From positions 1 to 64,000 of the forward strand of contig JAFVZN010000019.1 of assembly GCA_017508135.1 (NCBI GenBank): a DNA stretch of 64,000 bases, read 5' to 3'. Under the pieces are notes generated by a model. The model made no database searches, was not told the origin of the DNA, and saw nothing but the letters and a program-made list of their open reading frames with translations. Shown in pieces: positions 9,481-63,718 of this stretch. The stretch's first letter is position 1, and each line of letters begins with the position of its first letter. This DNA comes from Lentisphaeria bacterium. Its GTDB lineage: Bacteria; Verrucomicrobiota; Lentisphaeria; Victivallales; Victivallaceae. The position numbers and the translations under genes were made by a program.

Positions 9481-9768
9481 AACCGCTGTCAGTCGGAATT
9501 AACCGCGACAGCGATTACCACACGCCTGTCGGGCGTTAAGCCCGACGAAAGGCGCAAACTCCAGCGGTGTTGTGACCGTAAAAACCGCTGTCAGTCGGAA
9601 TTGACCGCGACAGCGGTCACCACACGCCTGTCGGGCGTTAAGCCCGACGAAAGGCGCAAACTCCAGCGGTGTTGTGGCCGTAAAAACCGCTGTCAGTCGG
9701 AATTAACCGCGACAGCGGTCACCACACGCCTGTCGGGCGTTAAGCCCGACGAAAGGCGCAAACTCCAG
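9481..9768. repeat. Three tandem 102-bp repeats, each with two hairpins
   Basis: Units start at 9481, 9583 and 9685; the third is incomplete. Units differ at only a few positions. Each contains ACCGCTGTC...GACAGCGGT (one pair lost in the first copy) and a perfect hairpin GTCGGGC-gttaa-GCCCGAC. They lie 3' of the rubredoxin operon and 5' of the hydG promoter. Confidence 0.9.
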
Positions 9769-9775
9769 AGGGTAA

Positions 9776-9895
9776 GGCGCATTATCGCGCCGCTATCCGC
9801 GGGTTTTGTCAAGGCGGTGGCGAAGGAGTGGACTTTGGTCCTCGACTGAGCCAACGTCCGCAGACAAGGCGCGCGGGAGCAAGCGAGAATGCGCC
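9776..9895 (-). repeat. Hairpin element copy D
   Basis: On the minus strand, 11 bases after the rubredoxin stop. Outer arms GGCGCATT/AATGCGCC pair over 8 bp, TTGTC/GACAA and TGGC/GCCA form inner helices, and the apex is CAGTCGAG-GAC-caaa-GTC-CACTCCTTC. The core matches copies A, B and C. Confidence 0.75.
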
Positions 9896-9905
9896 GCGTT
9901 TTTCT

Positions 9906-10064
9906 TCACTCAGCAGAGAAGCTGTCCTTAGGCGCGCCGCATTCGGGGCAGACCCAATCTTCGGGGATATCTTTGAAAGCAGTTCCGGGAGCGATACCGT
10001 TATCGGGATCGCCTTTTTCCGGATCGTAAACATAACCGCAGACGTCACAAATGTACTTTTCCAT
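9906..10064 (-). CDS. Rubredoxin
   Basis: A 52-residue one-iron electron carrier with [17 protein letters not shown] at the N-terminus and [13 protein letters not shown] at the C-terminus. The two CxxC(G) motifs (C6, C9, C39, C42) give the Fe(Cys)4 site. AGGAG lies about 10 bases before the ATG. It closes the operon fur, superoxide reductase, flavodiiron protein, and is the expected electron donor to both enzymes. Confidence 0.97.
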
Positions 10065-14158: not shown

Positions 14159-14610
14159 AAATCTCCCTGCGGCGGCGCATTGCGGGCTTTTTTTGTGCCT
14201 TGCGTCGCTCGCCGCTCGCGCCGCAGTTTTGATTTCACAGGAAATGAGACAAAAACAAAAAGAAAGCAGGTGTTTATGCTCAGCGGCAACACGACGTACA
14301 ATAAGCCCGAAGATGGACCCAATAAACATAATTGTTCCGAGACAAACCTGCTTTCTGGTGCATAACATAATATCTTGAGGTGAAAAAGTCAAGTTCTCTC
14401 TGCGAAAATCCCGTAATTTTTTTACAGCTGTCCCATAAAAAGCAAACCTTCGGCGGACTCTACTCCAAAAAATCTCCCTGCGGCGGCGGAGAGCCGCCTC
14501 GCCGCTCGTGCTTCGCATTCGACGGTTGCAGTCGATTTTCCGGAGACCACGCCCTCCGTCATTCCGGGCGGCTTACGCCGTCCTCATAACTGCGGGTAAG
14601 GTAGTTTTAA
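14159..14610. other. Non-coding gap with degenerate hairpin-element pieces
   Basis: At 14168-14226 CTGCGGCG...CGCCGCAG closes a truncated element, with the flank AGTTTTGATTTCACAGGAAATGAGAC reading like the reverse complement of the 5' flank of copies A and B. ATCTCCCTGCGGCGGCG recurs at about 14472. The rest up to copy C is unassigned and I see no credible gene. Confidence 0.5.
14252..14400 (-). ncRNA. Candidate small RNA of about 100 nt
   Basis: On the minus strand a promoter-like TTGACT-17-TATGTT (about 14392-14364) precedes AGAAAGCAGGT at 14356. Its perfect 11-bp complement ends at 14261 and runs directly into TTTTGTTTTTG. The arrangement is that of a short transcript whose closing stem doubles as a terminator. 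An embedded short frame (MFIGSIFGLIVRRVAAEHK) lacks a good ribosome site. No known RNA family was recognised. Confidence 0.35.
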
Positions 14611-14713
14611 AGCAGTACACCTTGGCGGCAAGTCTGCGGACTCCGGCAAAGTCGAGTACCGGCGTTCACTCCTTTGCCGTCGCCAATTTTGGAACATTAT
14701 CTCTTTGTGCTGC
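14611..14713 (+). repeat. Hairpin element copy C
   Basis: AGCAG/CTGCT, TTGGCG/CGCCAA and CGGCAAAG/CTTTGCCG nest around AGTCGAG-TAC-cggc-GTT-CACTCCTT. It lies in the gap between the exonuclease gene and the convergent CBM9-like gene and ends at the stop of the latter. Confidence 0.65.
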
Positions 14714-23067: not shown

Positions 23068-23121
23068 TAAGGGGCTGTTGCTCACCTTTTTGGAGGTTTG
23101 GCAACAGCCTCTTATCTTTTG
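23068..23121 (+). terminator. Terminator of ppdK
   Basis: GGCTGTTGC pairs with GCAACAGCC across a 21-nt loop, followed by TCTTATCTTTTG. Confidence 0.75.
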
Positions 23122-23153
23122 TTATTGTCTCATTTCTTGTGAAATCAAAACTT

Positions 23154-23276
23154 CGGCGGCGCATTGCGGGCAATCTCTTGTCAAGTCATCGGACGTCAAC
23201 TCAGTCGAGTACAGTCGTACACTCCTTCGTTGCCACCTCGACTTGACGTCGACCTTGCCTCACACTGCATCCGCCG
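23154..23276 (+). repeat. Hairpin element copy A
   Basis: CGGCGG/CCGCCG outer arms, GGCAA/TTGCC, GTCAAGTC/GACTTGAC, CAAC/GTTG and the apex CAGTCGAG-TAC-agtc-GTA-CACTCCTTC. An alternative perfect pairing GACGTCAA/TTGACGTC also exists. It lies after the ppdK terminator, on the same strand. Confidence 0.8.
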
Positions 23277-60337: not shown

Positions 60338-62542
60338 ATGATAAAGCAGTGGGAAATCGACCGGGAGTATCTGGAACGCAAGTTCACTGACCCGGATTTT
60401 TACAATGGCGTTCCGGGAAAATCGCCTGCGGAATTGAAGGAGGAATTGATTTCTCTTTTTGAAAAGACCGAACATTTGCCGCATCCGGTAGCGAAAGCGG
60501 AGGCATTTGCTTTGATCGTCAATGAGATGCAAGTTTCAGTCTCTAATTGCGACTATTTTCCTGCGTTCTCCATCTGGGGGAAAAAACTGCTGGCATCCAC
60601 CCATCAGGCATTGTGGAGGAATGAGATCATTTCTGAAATCTATCCCGGAGAGGATGCCGCTGCTCATGCGGCGATGGCGGAGAGCCGGACGGTGCAGGTG
60701 CGATTTGATTATGAACACTCCGTACCGGATTGGGATGCCGTGCTGGAGCTGGGATTTTCCGGATTGCTGGAACGCGCCTGCCGTTATGAAAAAGATAAAT
60801 CCCCGGAATTCGCCGCTCATCCGGAGTACCGTGATTATTTTGCGGCAATCAAAATCGAGTATCAGGCGATCCTCAAATTGATGGAACGTCTGACCGCCGA
60901 AGCGGCAAAACTTCCGGCTCAACCGAAAGGTGCGGCGTTGCATGAGGCACTGCTTCAACTGCAAAAGGGCAGTGCGCGCAACTTCTATGAAGCATTGCTG
61001 CAAATCTGGTTGTACTTCCTGTTGTCAGAGTATGTTGACGTTATCCAGACCCGTACCTTCGGCAACCTTGACCGGATACTTTATCCTTATTACAAGCGCG
61101 ACCTCGACTCCGGCAGATACACTGAAGCGGAAATCCGTTATTTTATACGCAGTTTCATGTATCAGGCAACGGCGATGCATTACACTGTAGGACACCCGTT
61201 CTACTTCGGCGGAACCAACGCCGACGGCAGCAGTGCGATCAATGAGTTGTCGTATCTGATTTTGGATGAGTATGATAAAATAGGGATATTTGACCCCAAA
61301 CTCCAGATAAAAGTTTCAGAAAACACTCCCGTGGATTTTATTGACCGGGCACTGGATATGATCCGGCGCGGACAGAACAGCATTGTTTTTGTCGGCGAAC
61401 CGTGTATCATCCGGACGATGCTGAAGTACGGTTACTCTCTCCGCGAGGCGCAGACTGCCGATATCAAGGGGTGTTATGAATATTGTGCGCGCGGCGGAGC
61501 GGTGGAAACTGCTCCTGTGACGGTCAATGCGGCAAAGGTGCTGGGGCTGGCTTTGCACAACGGGGTTGAAGTTTTGAGCGGCAAACGGATCGGACTTGAA
61601 ACGGGGGAAGTTTCAACTTTCAAAAATTTCCGGCAGCTTTACCGGGCGTTTCTCCGGCAGCTGTTCTTCATGTTCGACCGGAGTGTGGAGTTTGCCCTGC
61701 GCATTGAAAAACATCTGGATACGGTCAAGCCCGCGCCGATGCTCAGTGCCACCTTTGAAGAGAGTTTGCGTCGTGCGGTCGATGGTTACAGCCGGGGGGC
61801 GAAGTACAACAACTCCAATGTGTGGCTCTGCGCCCCGGCAACGGCGGCGGATTCGCTGACGATGATCAAGCGTTATGTTTTTGACCGCAAAGAGTTGACG
61901 CTTGCGGAATTTACTGCGATACTGGATCGGGATTTTGCCGGAGATGAAGTGTTCCGTCAGCGTTTGCTGCATGACCCGGAAAAGTATGGAAACAATCAGG
62001 AGCTTCCTGACCGGATAGCGGTGCATTTTGCCAGTGCCGTTGCCCGCCGTTACAACGGTAAACCCAACTCGCGCGGCGGATTTTTCACAACTGCGCTCCA
62101 CGCCTCCAACCGTTTTGTCCAGTGGGCGGATCAGGTGGAAGCTACTGCCGACGGCCGTAAACGCGGAGATGAGCTCAGCAAAAATATCACGGCAACGCAG
62201 GGATGCTCTTTTAAGGGAGCGACCGCGCTGGTCGCATCGGCACTGAAGTTCGATTCATCGCTCTTTATGGCGGATCTGCCGGTGGATGTGATGCTGCATC
62301 CGTCAGAAGTAAAAGGCGATGCCGGAATTGCCGCCATGCGTTCTCTTTTGATGACCTTTATCAAACATTACGGACACGCTCTGCAATTCAATGTGATGGA
62401 TGTCAACGTGTTGCGAAAGGCTCAGAAGGAGCCGGAGAAATACCGCAACCTTCAGGTGCGTATTTGCGGATGGAACGTCTTGTGGAACTCCATACCGCGC
62501 CGGGAACAGGATGCTTATATCAGACAGGCAGAGAGATTATGA
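60338..62542 (+). CDS. Glycyl radical enzyme of unassigned substrate
   Basis: A 734-residue pyruvate formate-lyase-superfamily enzyme. The C-terminal radical loop is RICGWN with the radical glycine at G711, 24 residues from the end. The thiyl site is KGCYEYCARGG (C379, E381). The C-x-E pattern occurs in eliminase-type members (glycerol/propanediol dehydratase, choline lyase) whereas PFL itself has two adjacent cysteines, so an eliminase or dehydratase is favoured. Tyr between Cys and Glu and the following YCARGG do not match classes I can name. AAAGGAGG lies 8 bases before ATG 60338. Its activase is encoded 300 bp downstream. Confidence 0.92.
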   Translation: MIKQWEIDREYLERKFTDPDFYNGVPGKSPAELKEELISLFEKTEHLPHPVAKAEAFALIVNEMQVSVSNCDYFPAFSIWGKKLLASTHQALWRNEIISEIYPGEDAAAHAAMAESRTVQVRFDYEHSVPDWDAVLELGFSGLLERACRYEKDKSPEFAAHPEYRDYFAAIKIEYQAILKLMERLTAEAAKLPAQPKGAALHEALLQLQKGSARNFYEALLQIWLYFLLSEYVDVIQTRTFGNLDRILYPYYKRDLDSGRYTEAEIRYFIRSFMYQATAMHYTVGHPFYFGGTNADGSSAINELSYLILDEYDKIGIFDPKLQIKVSENTPVDFIDRALDMIRRGQNSIVFVGEPCIIRTMLKYGYSLREAQTADIKGCYEYCARGGAVETAPVTVNAAKVLGLALHNGVEVLSGKRIGLETGEVSTFKNFRQLYRAFLRQLFFMFDRSVEFALRIEKHLDTVKPAPMLSATFEESLRRAVDGYSRGAKYNNSNVWLCAPATAADSLTMIKRYVFDRKELTLAEFTAILDRDFAGDEVFRQRLLHDPEKYGNNQELPDRIAVHFASAVARRYNGKPNSRGGFFTTALHASNRFVQWADQVEATADGRKRGDELSKNITATQGCSFKGATALVASALKFDSSLFMADLPVDVMLHPSEVKGDAGIAAMRSLLMTFIKHYGHALQFNVMDVNVLRKAQKEPEKYRNLQVRICGWNVLWNSIPRREQDAYIRQAERL

Positions 62543-62579
62543 TTGGTGTTGTCTCATTTTTTGTGAGAAATCTAAACTG

Positions 62580-62703
62580 CGGCGGCGCCTCGTGGGCAAT
62601 CTTACCGGCAAATCTGCGGACTCATCTTCAGTCGAGGACAATAGTCCACTCCTTCAGCTTCGCCTTGATTTACCGGCAACCTTGCCGCACGATCCATCCG
62701 CCG
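62580..62703 (+). repeat. Hairpin element copy B
   Basis: CGGCGG/CCGCCG outer arms, GGCAA/TTGCC, ACCGGCAAAT pairing at 8 of 10 positions with ATTTACCGGC, and the apex CAGTCGAG-GAC-aata-GTC-CACTCCTTC. The flank GTCTCATTTTTTGTGAGAAA matches that of copy A. Confidence 0.8.
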
Positions 62704-62726
62704 ATTGCAAACGACTGTTTTTATTC

Positions 62727-62755
62727 TTGACAAATCACAATCTATGTTATATATT
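62727..62755 (+). promoter_or_regulatory. Promoter of the activase gene
   Basis: TTGACA (62727-62732), 17-bp spacer, TATATT (62750-62755). Position relative to element B matches the orphan promoter after element A. Confidence 0.7.
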
Positions 62756-62842
62756 TTTAAAGTTTTTAAAGTTTTTAAAGTAATATAAATACAATTTTCT
62801 TTCAGAGAATATTCAGTTTCACAAAATTTGGGACATTAACTT

Positions 62843-63718
62843 ATGATTACAGGAACGGTACTGGATTTTGAACACTTTGCCATTCACGATGGCCCGGGTA
62901 TCCGGATGGTGGTGTTTTTGAAGGGGTGTCCTTTGCGCTGTATCTGGTGTCATACTCCGGAATCACAGCATCGTGAGCAGGAACTGCTTTTTTATGAAGA
63001 CCGCTGTATCGGCTGCGGCTGTTGCGGAAACGTTTTTGACAAACTGCCGCTGGCATCTCCGTCACAGGAACAACTGGATGCAGTTTCGCGTTGTCCGGTG
63101 CGGGCGGTTTCTGTTGCGGGGAAAGAGATGACGGTCGATGCTGTTGCTGCCGAACTGGAAAAAGAGATCATGTTTTTCAATGAAAGCGGCGGCGGTTTGA
63201 CCATCTCCGGCGGAGAACCGCTCTTTCAGTTTGAGTTCACTTTGGAGTTGGCAAAGCGCGCAAAAGAGCGCGGCATCGGATGTTGTATCGAAACGTGCGG
63301 TTATGGCAGATTTGAACTTCTTGAACAGCTCATACCGTATACCGATATTTTCCTTTTTGATTACAAGGCAACAGCTCCCGAGCTTCACCGGAAACTTACC
63401 GGCGTGGATAATTTTCTTATCTTGGAAAATCTGCGGAAACTCAACGCATCAGGCGCAAAGATCATTTTGCGCTGTCCGCTTGTTCCCGGTGTCAACGATC
63501 AGGAGGAGCATTTGTGTGCCATTGCAAATATTGCCAATGAACTTGAGCATGTTGAAGCCATTCACATTGAACCCTATCACCCGATGGCACGGGGAAAATA
63601 TCAAGCATTGAAACGCAGTTGTTCCGGGATTCCGGAGGAGTTCCCTTCTGCTGACACGATAGAACACTGGAAGGCTGTTATCTCCGCGCACACCGGAAAG
63701 ATGGTGCTTATCCCCTGA
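62843..63718 (+). CDS. Glycyl radical enzyme activase (radical SAM)
   Basis: A 291-residue activating enzyme that abstracts hydrogen from the glycine of its partner. HDGPGIRMVVFLKGCPLRCIWC carries the SAM cluster motif C29-x3-C33-x2-C36 in the activase-specific form. A ferredoxin-like insert (CIGCGCC ... CPVRAV) binds an auxiliary cluster but looks shortened compared with two-cluster activases. ISGGEPLFQ, IETCGYG and LFDYKATAPE complete the barrel. Partner: the enzyme at 60338-62542. Its stop is one base from the convergent AraC gene. Confidence 0.95.
   Translation: MITGTVLDFEHFAIHDGPGIRMVVFLKGCPLRCIWCHTPESQHREQELLFYEDRCIGCGCCGNVFDKLPLASPSQEQLDAVSRCPVRAVSVAGKEMTVDAVAAELEKEIMFFNESGGGLTISGGEPLFQFEFTLELAKRAKERGIGCCIETCGYGRFELLEQLIPYTDIFLFDYKATAPELHRKLTGVDNFLILENLRKLNASGAKIILRCPLVPGVNDQEEHLCAIANIANELEHVEAIHIEPYHPMARGKYQALKRSCSGIPEEFPSADTIEHWKAVISAHTGKMVLIP

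Follow-up and report, generated by a model that had tools for sequence, protein, structure and literature searches.

The four dispersed hairpins found in the window, a stretch of 64,000 nucleotides from a Lentisphaeria bacterium, probably represent a mobile, REP-like DNA hairpin repeat whose arms change in pairs, which is selected in the form of folded DNA and which serves as the target of an IS1111-like element. The element behaves as a REP or as a MITE-borne repeat, yet it fails to show the defining features of REPs. Its surprising parts are the placement at stop codons and the occurrence of the same apex in three phyla.

Copies of the hairpin in the window and in related genomes

The original prediction described four intergenic copies (A to D) of one structured element with covarying helices. 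All four copies are real, since the apex pattern was recovered at each of the predicted positions, on the minus strand in copy D and on the plus strand in the other three, compared with 0.01 matches expected from shuffled sequences. The copies A, B and D each fold as a single long irregular hairpin, while copy C retains the inner helices only. The copies and the features in their neighbourhood are the following:

9600..9775, minus strand: second hairpin (CGTCGGGCTTAACGCCCGAC) and terminator-like hairpin with a T-run, 3' of copy D, tandemly repeated and extending below 9600
9776..9895, minus strand: hairpin of copy D (class II/D), apex 9823-9846
9906..10064, minus strand: rubredoxin-like gene, its stop codon 10 nt ahead of hairpin D
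14167..14254, plus strand: degenerate class I fragment, the hairpin 5' arm joined to an inverted class I terminal inverted repeat (at 14233)
14424..14438, plus strand: isolated class III terminal inverted repeat (ACAGCTGTCCCATAA) upstream of copy C
14611..14713, plus strand: hairpin of copy C, inner helices alone kept, apex 14651-14674, within a cluster of other repeat fragments
23121..23153, plus strand: class I MITE of copy A, left terminal inverted repeat (GTTATTGTCTCATTTCTTGTGAAATCAAAACTT), which matches those of class I
23154..23276, plus strand: hairpin of copy A, apex 23204-23227
62537..62544, plus strand: left 8-bp target duplication of copy B (TTATGATT), containing the stop codon TGA at 62540-62542
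62545..62840, plus strand: complete 296-bp class I MITE of copy B, left terminal inverted repeat about 62545-62578, right one about 62817-62840
62580..62703, plus strand: hairpin of copy B, apex 62631-62654
62841..62848, plus strand: right 8-bp target duplication of copy B (TTATGATT)

Another dispersed repeat (CGGCGGAGAGCCGCCTCGCCGCTCGTGCTTCGCATTCGACGGTTGCAGTCGATTTTCCGG) was observed beside hairpin copies, at 14480-14590 of the window and in the loci L001 and L021.

Across the copies the hairpin is 120-155 nt long, and almost all full copies form one long irregular hairpin with a constant tip and conserved symmetric mismatches. The tip is fixed as GG-[TC]-G-[A]-KAC-N4-GTM-[A]-C-[TC]-CC, the brackets marking the symmetric mismatches.

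A search of the window's genome and of related Lentisphaerota, as proposed together with the prediction, extended the element far beyond the window. Many intergenic palindromic copies per genome were found, as is typical for REPs. The host genome of the window (2.0 Mb, 73% complete) contains 75 apex copies with up to two mismatches and none of the reversed pattern, the true copy numbers being probably higher since hairpin copies at contig ends suggest that the repeats break the assembly. The MAGs examined are fragmented with repeats frequently located at contig ends; in G000 this applies to many copies (C9, C10, C14, C25, C36, C37 and others). According to a survey of the genus with a covariance model, in which up to 99 copies per genome were counted, 18 of the 34 genomes carry copies and 16 do not, the carriers being mostly the closer relatives of the window's genome as judged by rsmI identity.

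Paired change in the arms and the folded form

When different classes were aligned together by plain MAFFT, RNAalifold recovered the apex helices only, because the arms of separate classes cannot be aligned by sequence. Alignments made class by class were used in its place. In the class I/III alignment of the Lentisphaerota 16 of 42 helix pairs are altered on both sides, and the apex helix is paired to 98.9%. This alignment contains 108 double-change cells in comparison to 40 +/- 5 in shuffles, none of which (0/500) reached this number, and to 7-18 in slid controls; as copies within one genome are related by descent, such counts overstate the independent events. Hairpins with the same apex in Desulfovibrio gave a similar result, with 8 of 34 pairs and 57 double-change cells versus 16.5 +/- 2.8 after shuffling (0/500 as high), mostly located in one outer stem and next to an invariant apex helix. 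The compensatory change initially proposed from the four copies is hence strong beyond them as well.

Template switching or gene conversion in the imperfect palindrome might copy one arm to the other and thereby generate paired changes as a mutational by-product without selection on the fold. Such copying would fit with the near absence of one-sided intermediates, with a Desulfovibrio stem that covaries at 7 of its 14 pairs beside identical stretches and with the existence of mosaic copies whose arms derive from different classes. However, the symmetric mismatches of apex and stem are conserved in three phyla and would be wiped out as well, so that this explanation seems rather unlikely.

We prefer selection on the folded form, which would most likely be DNA, either as cruciform or as single strand, and would act via a factor reading the tip. 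The paired changes are almost entirely Watson-Crick swaps. Among the plus strand departures at mostly Watson-Crick pairs, 14 distinct G-T and 27 distinct A-C cases were counted (p = 0.06). Since G-T departures are no commoner than A-C departures, selection does not evidently act on the RNA of the plus strand. Covariation with tolerance of G-U pairs on one strand, as expected for a structured RNA, was not observed, and the proposed Rfam search matched no family in the window, in the copies or in the copies from other phyla.

MITE-borne and bare hairpins

The hairpin occurs in two forms within the genus, as the passenger of MITEs (classes I and III, including the copies A and B) and as a bare hairpin (class II/D, including copy D). 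Its mobility is supported by the copy number, the MITE ends with their target duplications, an empty site and the patchy occurrence. Of the functions considered in the original prediction, a mobile hairpin repeat is thus the one that stands, whereas a 3' UTR stabiliser and a small RNA are disfavoured by the G-U counts, the lack of an Rfam match and the lack of an orientation bias outside class II/D. The predicted position 3' of a gene proved partly correct: all four copies have a gene of the same strand upstream, but A and B, being MITE-borne, do not simply follow genes, and among the copies of the window only D belongs to the class directly following a stop codon.

The MITEs of class I end with TGTCYCA and many copies are flanked by 8-bp target duplications, while those of class III end with CACAGNTRTCYCATAA and many are flanked by 9-bp duplications. 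Both classes hence possess the terminal inverted repeats and target duplications of MITEs and resemble them furthermore in their size of mostly 270-320 bp and in carrying no gene. They differ from MITEs in having, next to their left end, a structured hairpin that is conserved and common to two different end families and to the bare class II/D copies. A class III MITE of 196 bp without hairpin exists as well. The MITE of copy A is truncated: the hairpin follows the left inverted repeat (from 23121), and no right terminal inverted repeat was found within the window. In the close relative G031, whose PPDK protein is 98.7% identical, the PPDK 3' flank is the same up to the point at which the element starts in copy A, beyond which the DNA differs. 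This apparently empty site shows an insertion or a loss, as judged from the left side only.

In the classes I and III the hairpin would be moved in trans by DDE-type transposases recognising the MITE ends. No autonomous transposon bearing the ends of class I or III was found, with one IS-sized pair of ends being followed up; G017:C3 (1.8 kb) was rejected as autonomous class III partner, as it consists of a class III MITE into which an IS110 element has inserted. Copies of the classes other than II/D have the orientation of the neighbouring gene in 68 cases and the opposite one in 47, a bias that is not significant.

Class II/D shows a strict arrangement. Of its 45 copies 43 follow a gene in sense and 2 are opposite (p = 6e-11); 21 of the 43 begin no more than 15 nt from the stop codon, and several of the remaining ones are separated from it by partial tandem copies. 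Terminal inverted repeats of class I or III are absent from the 60 bp 5' of every class II/D copy. Some class II copies of G000 (L023, L028, L040, L059) contain the gene's stop codon within the first bases of the hairpin (GGGCGTTGA, GGGCGGTGA, GGCGGTAA), and the element thus supplies the gene end. Just past its stop codon, one orthologous gene has a hairpin of class II in G000 and of class III in G031, and class II copies at rsmI are present in G000 and G031 but missing from most other relatives. Another palindromic repeat, which has long A/T arms (e.g. GGGAAAAACTTTTTTTCACGGGAAAAAAAGTTTTTCCC), was detected repeatedly 3' of genes in several genomes within the genus (L205, L206, L178).

The hairpin could alternatively represent a 3' UTR element of RNA which is transcribed with the upstream gene, protects or terminates its mRNA and spreads because of this usefulness. 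The sense position close to stop codons, the second hairpin and the terminator-like sequences following class II/D and the exchange of class II for class III at the same place of one gene are in agreement with this assumption. Taking into account, however, that the remaining classes have no significant orientation bias, that G-U pairs are few and the plus strand shows A-C no less often than G-T, that no Rfam family was matched and that the Desulfovibrio copies are equally frequent between divergent and between convergent genes, we regard it as unlikely for the element as a whole. For class II/D, copy D included, a role in the mRNA is conceivable given the strict sense placement.

In the preferred interpretation as a mobile DNA repeat, the bare hairpin, located after genes in sense and often at the stop codon, would spread by a mechanism that was not found here. 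Class II/D might be placed by a dedicated process which recognises gene ends, e.g. coupled to the termination of translation or transcription or guided by RNA, and the apex of three phyla would then be the recognition site of a transferable machine. If this were true, a mobile hairpin would land in sense immediately past the stop codon; we consider this possibility speculative and quite improbable.

No transposase for the bare hairpin was found, PF01797 and PF00078 being missing from most carriers. A true REP-RAYT system, in which an HUH/Y1 transposase (RAYT, IS200) mobilises the hairpin itself, could be assumed from the REP-like hairpin, its copy number and its intergenic position, and Y1 genes indeed occur in 11 of the genus's 34 genomes. 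Yet the many-copy genomes G000, G031, G014, G017 and G011 gave no Y1 match and neither did 5 of 7 carriers in Desulfovibrio and Bacteroidales, hairpin-negative genomes such as G024 have one, and the Y1 loci L164-L173 gave no hairpin match, which renders such a system very improbable. A reverse transcriptase was also rejected as driver, since few carriers encode one and its presence does not track with the copies.

The apex as insertion target and its occurrence in other phyla

Insertion sequences of the IS110/IS1111 type are known to be RNA-guided. A transposon of this type interrupts one exact apex position in three hairpins. Within the hairpin of a class III MITE in G017, an IS110 transposase (PF02371 6e-18, PF01548 3e-15) was identified with the left junction GTCGAG/ATATTATGAGAG, the right half of the apex being replaced by other sequence. 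Two more contigs, from G017 and G031, start in the same right end of the IS, which is joined through TACNNNNGTACACTCC to a class II hairpin in one case and to a class III hairpin in the other. The element has the subterminal inverted repeat ATGAGAGACA/TGTCTCTCAT, a non-coding left end of about 146 nt and a right end of 315 nt with a branched RNA-like fold. It thus combines a DEDD and Transposase_20 protein with subterminal inverted repeats, a long non-coding right end and a fixed target, in accordance with the subterminal repeats and the long right non-coding end described for IS1111 members (PMC11208160, PMC11187229).

Two segments in the right end of L302 correspond to the target apex, namely GGTCGAG and the complement of TAAGTACAC; the longest match is equalled in 81 of 2000 shuffles. 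These segments are suggestive of a guide RNA directed to the target, and the IS invading the apex may accordingly be RNA-guided. Two copies of this IS110, with their right ends at L302:1-243 and in L354, differ in the putative guide segment, which is GTGGTCGAGATAGGG in L302 and GTGGCGAAGATTGAAG in L354. Adjacent to the L354 copy is CTTGGCGAAGAC, which matches the putative guide segment of this copy over 8 bases (GGCGAAGA). One reader of the tip is an IS1111-like element of the IS110 family inserting at GTCGAG/TAC, as its relatives do in REPs and attC sites. REPs are known insertion targets of IS110-family elements (PMC1525189, PMC11208160), and attC sites are targeted by IS1111 elements according to Post and Hall as cited in PMC11208160. 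The fixed landing site would provide an additional natural target for guided insertion.

With REP/BIME sequences and their RAYT (TnpA-REP) the present element shares the high-copy intergenic hairpins, the paired stem changes and the role as target of the IS110 family (PMC1525189, PMC11208160). It is, however, three to four times longer, its tip is conserved instead of a GTAG/CGTC tag at the base, and it is not associated with RAYT: neither a Y1/RAYT gene flanked by the repeats nor a 20-40 bp palindrome ending in GTAG or CGTC was found, and the alignments contain no such base tag. The CGTC-tagged REPs (PMC3733652) are likewise high-copy palindromes for which a dedicated transposase was not found, but they measure 20-40 bp and are tagged at the base, whereas the element described here measures 120-155 nt and is conserved at the apex. 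Integron attC sites resemble it as long imperfect hairpins past a stop codon, in sense, and as IS1111 targets. Unlike attC, it lacks R''/R' end boxes (no RYYYAAC / GTTRRRY boxes could be read at the hairpin base), its conserved part is the apex and its neighbours are ordinary chromosomal genes, not cassettes. The stop-codon-adjacent class may nevertheless be relevant to the question of how attC-like hairpins end up directly after genes.

The arms of ERIC repeats are conserved, whereas only the apex is conserved in the present element, which is set apart from ERIC on these described features. In size, intergenic position and imperfect palindrome it is similar to the ERIC/RU intergenic repeats (127 bp; PMC2759123).

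The apex common to the phyla reads (A/G)GTCGAG-KAC-N4-GTM-CACTCC. Among the matches listed it tops hairpins with unrelated arms in at least three phyla, represented by Lentisphaerota and by MAGs of Desulfovibrio and Bacteroidales. The Bacteroidales MAGs, which derive from deer and cattle, contain an array of hairpins between rpmA and a phosphomannomutase-like gene. The constant tip across three phyla together with arms free to change in pairs points to a shared reader of folded DNA that would differ from both RAYTs and reverse transcriptases.

Several further candidates were dismissed. Apex matches in Gemmatimonadota, Streptomyces, Amycolatopsis, Rhodococcus and Hyphomicrobiales were taken as chance because their flanks look unrelated and hairpin arms are absent, and the single viral match to the apex pattern was regarded likewise. 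A plasmid or phage origin was rejected, as the Desulfovibrio form had no match there. The genes near copies of different phyla share merely low-level similarity and resemble ordinary cellular genes.

In Desulfovibrio one hairpin copy (L333) has each of its arms interrupted by another repeat, roughly 120 bp long (GCTCCAGCCGTTGCGACGAAGGAAGC..GGCTACCGCTT), while the arms of L240 are uninterrupted.
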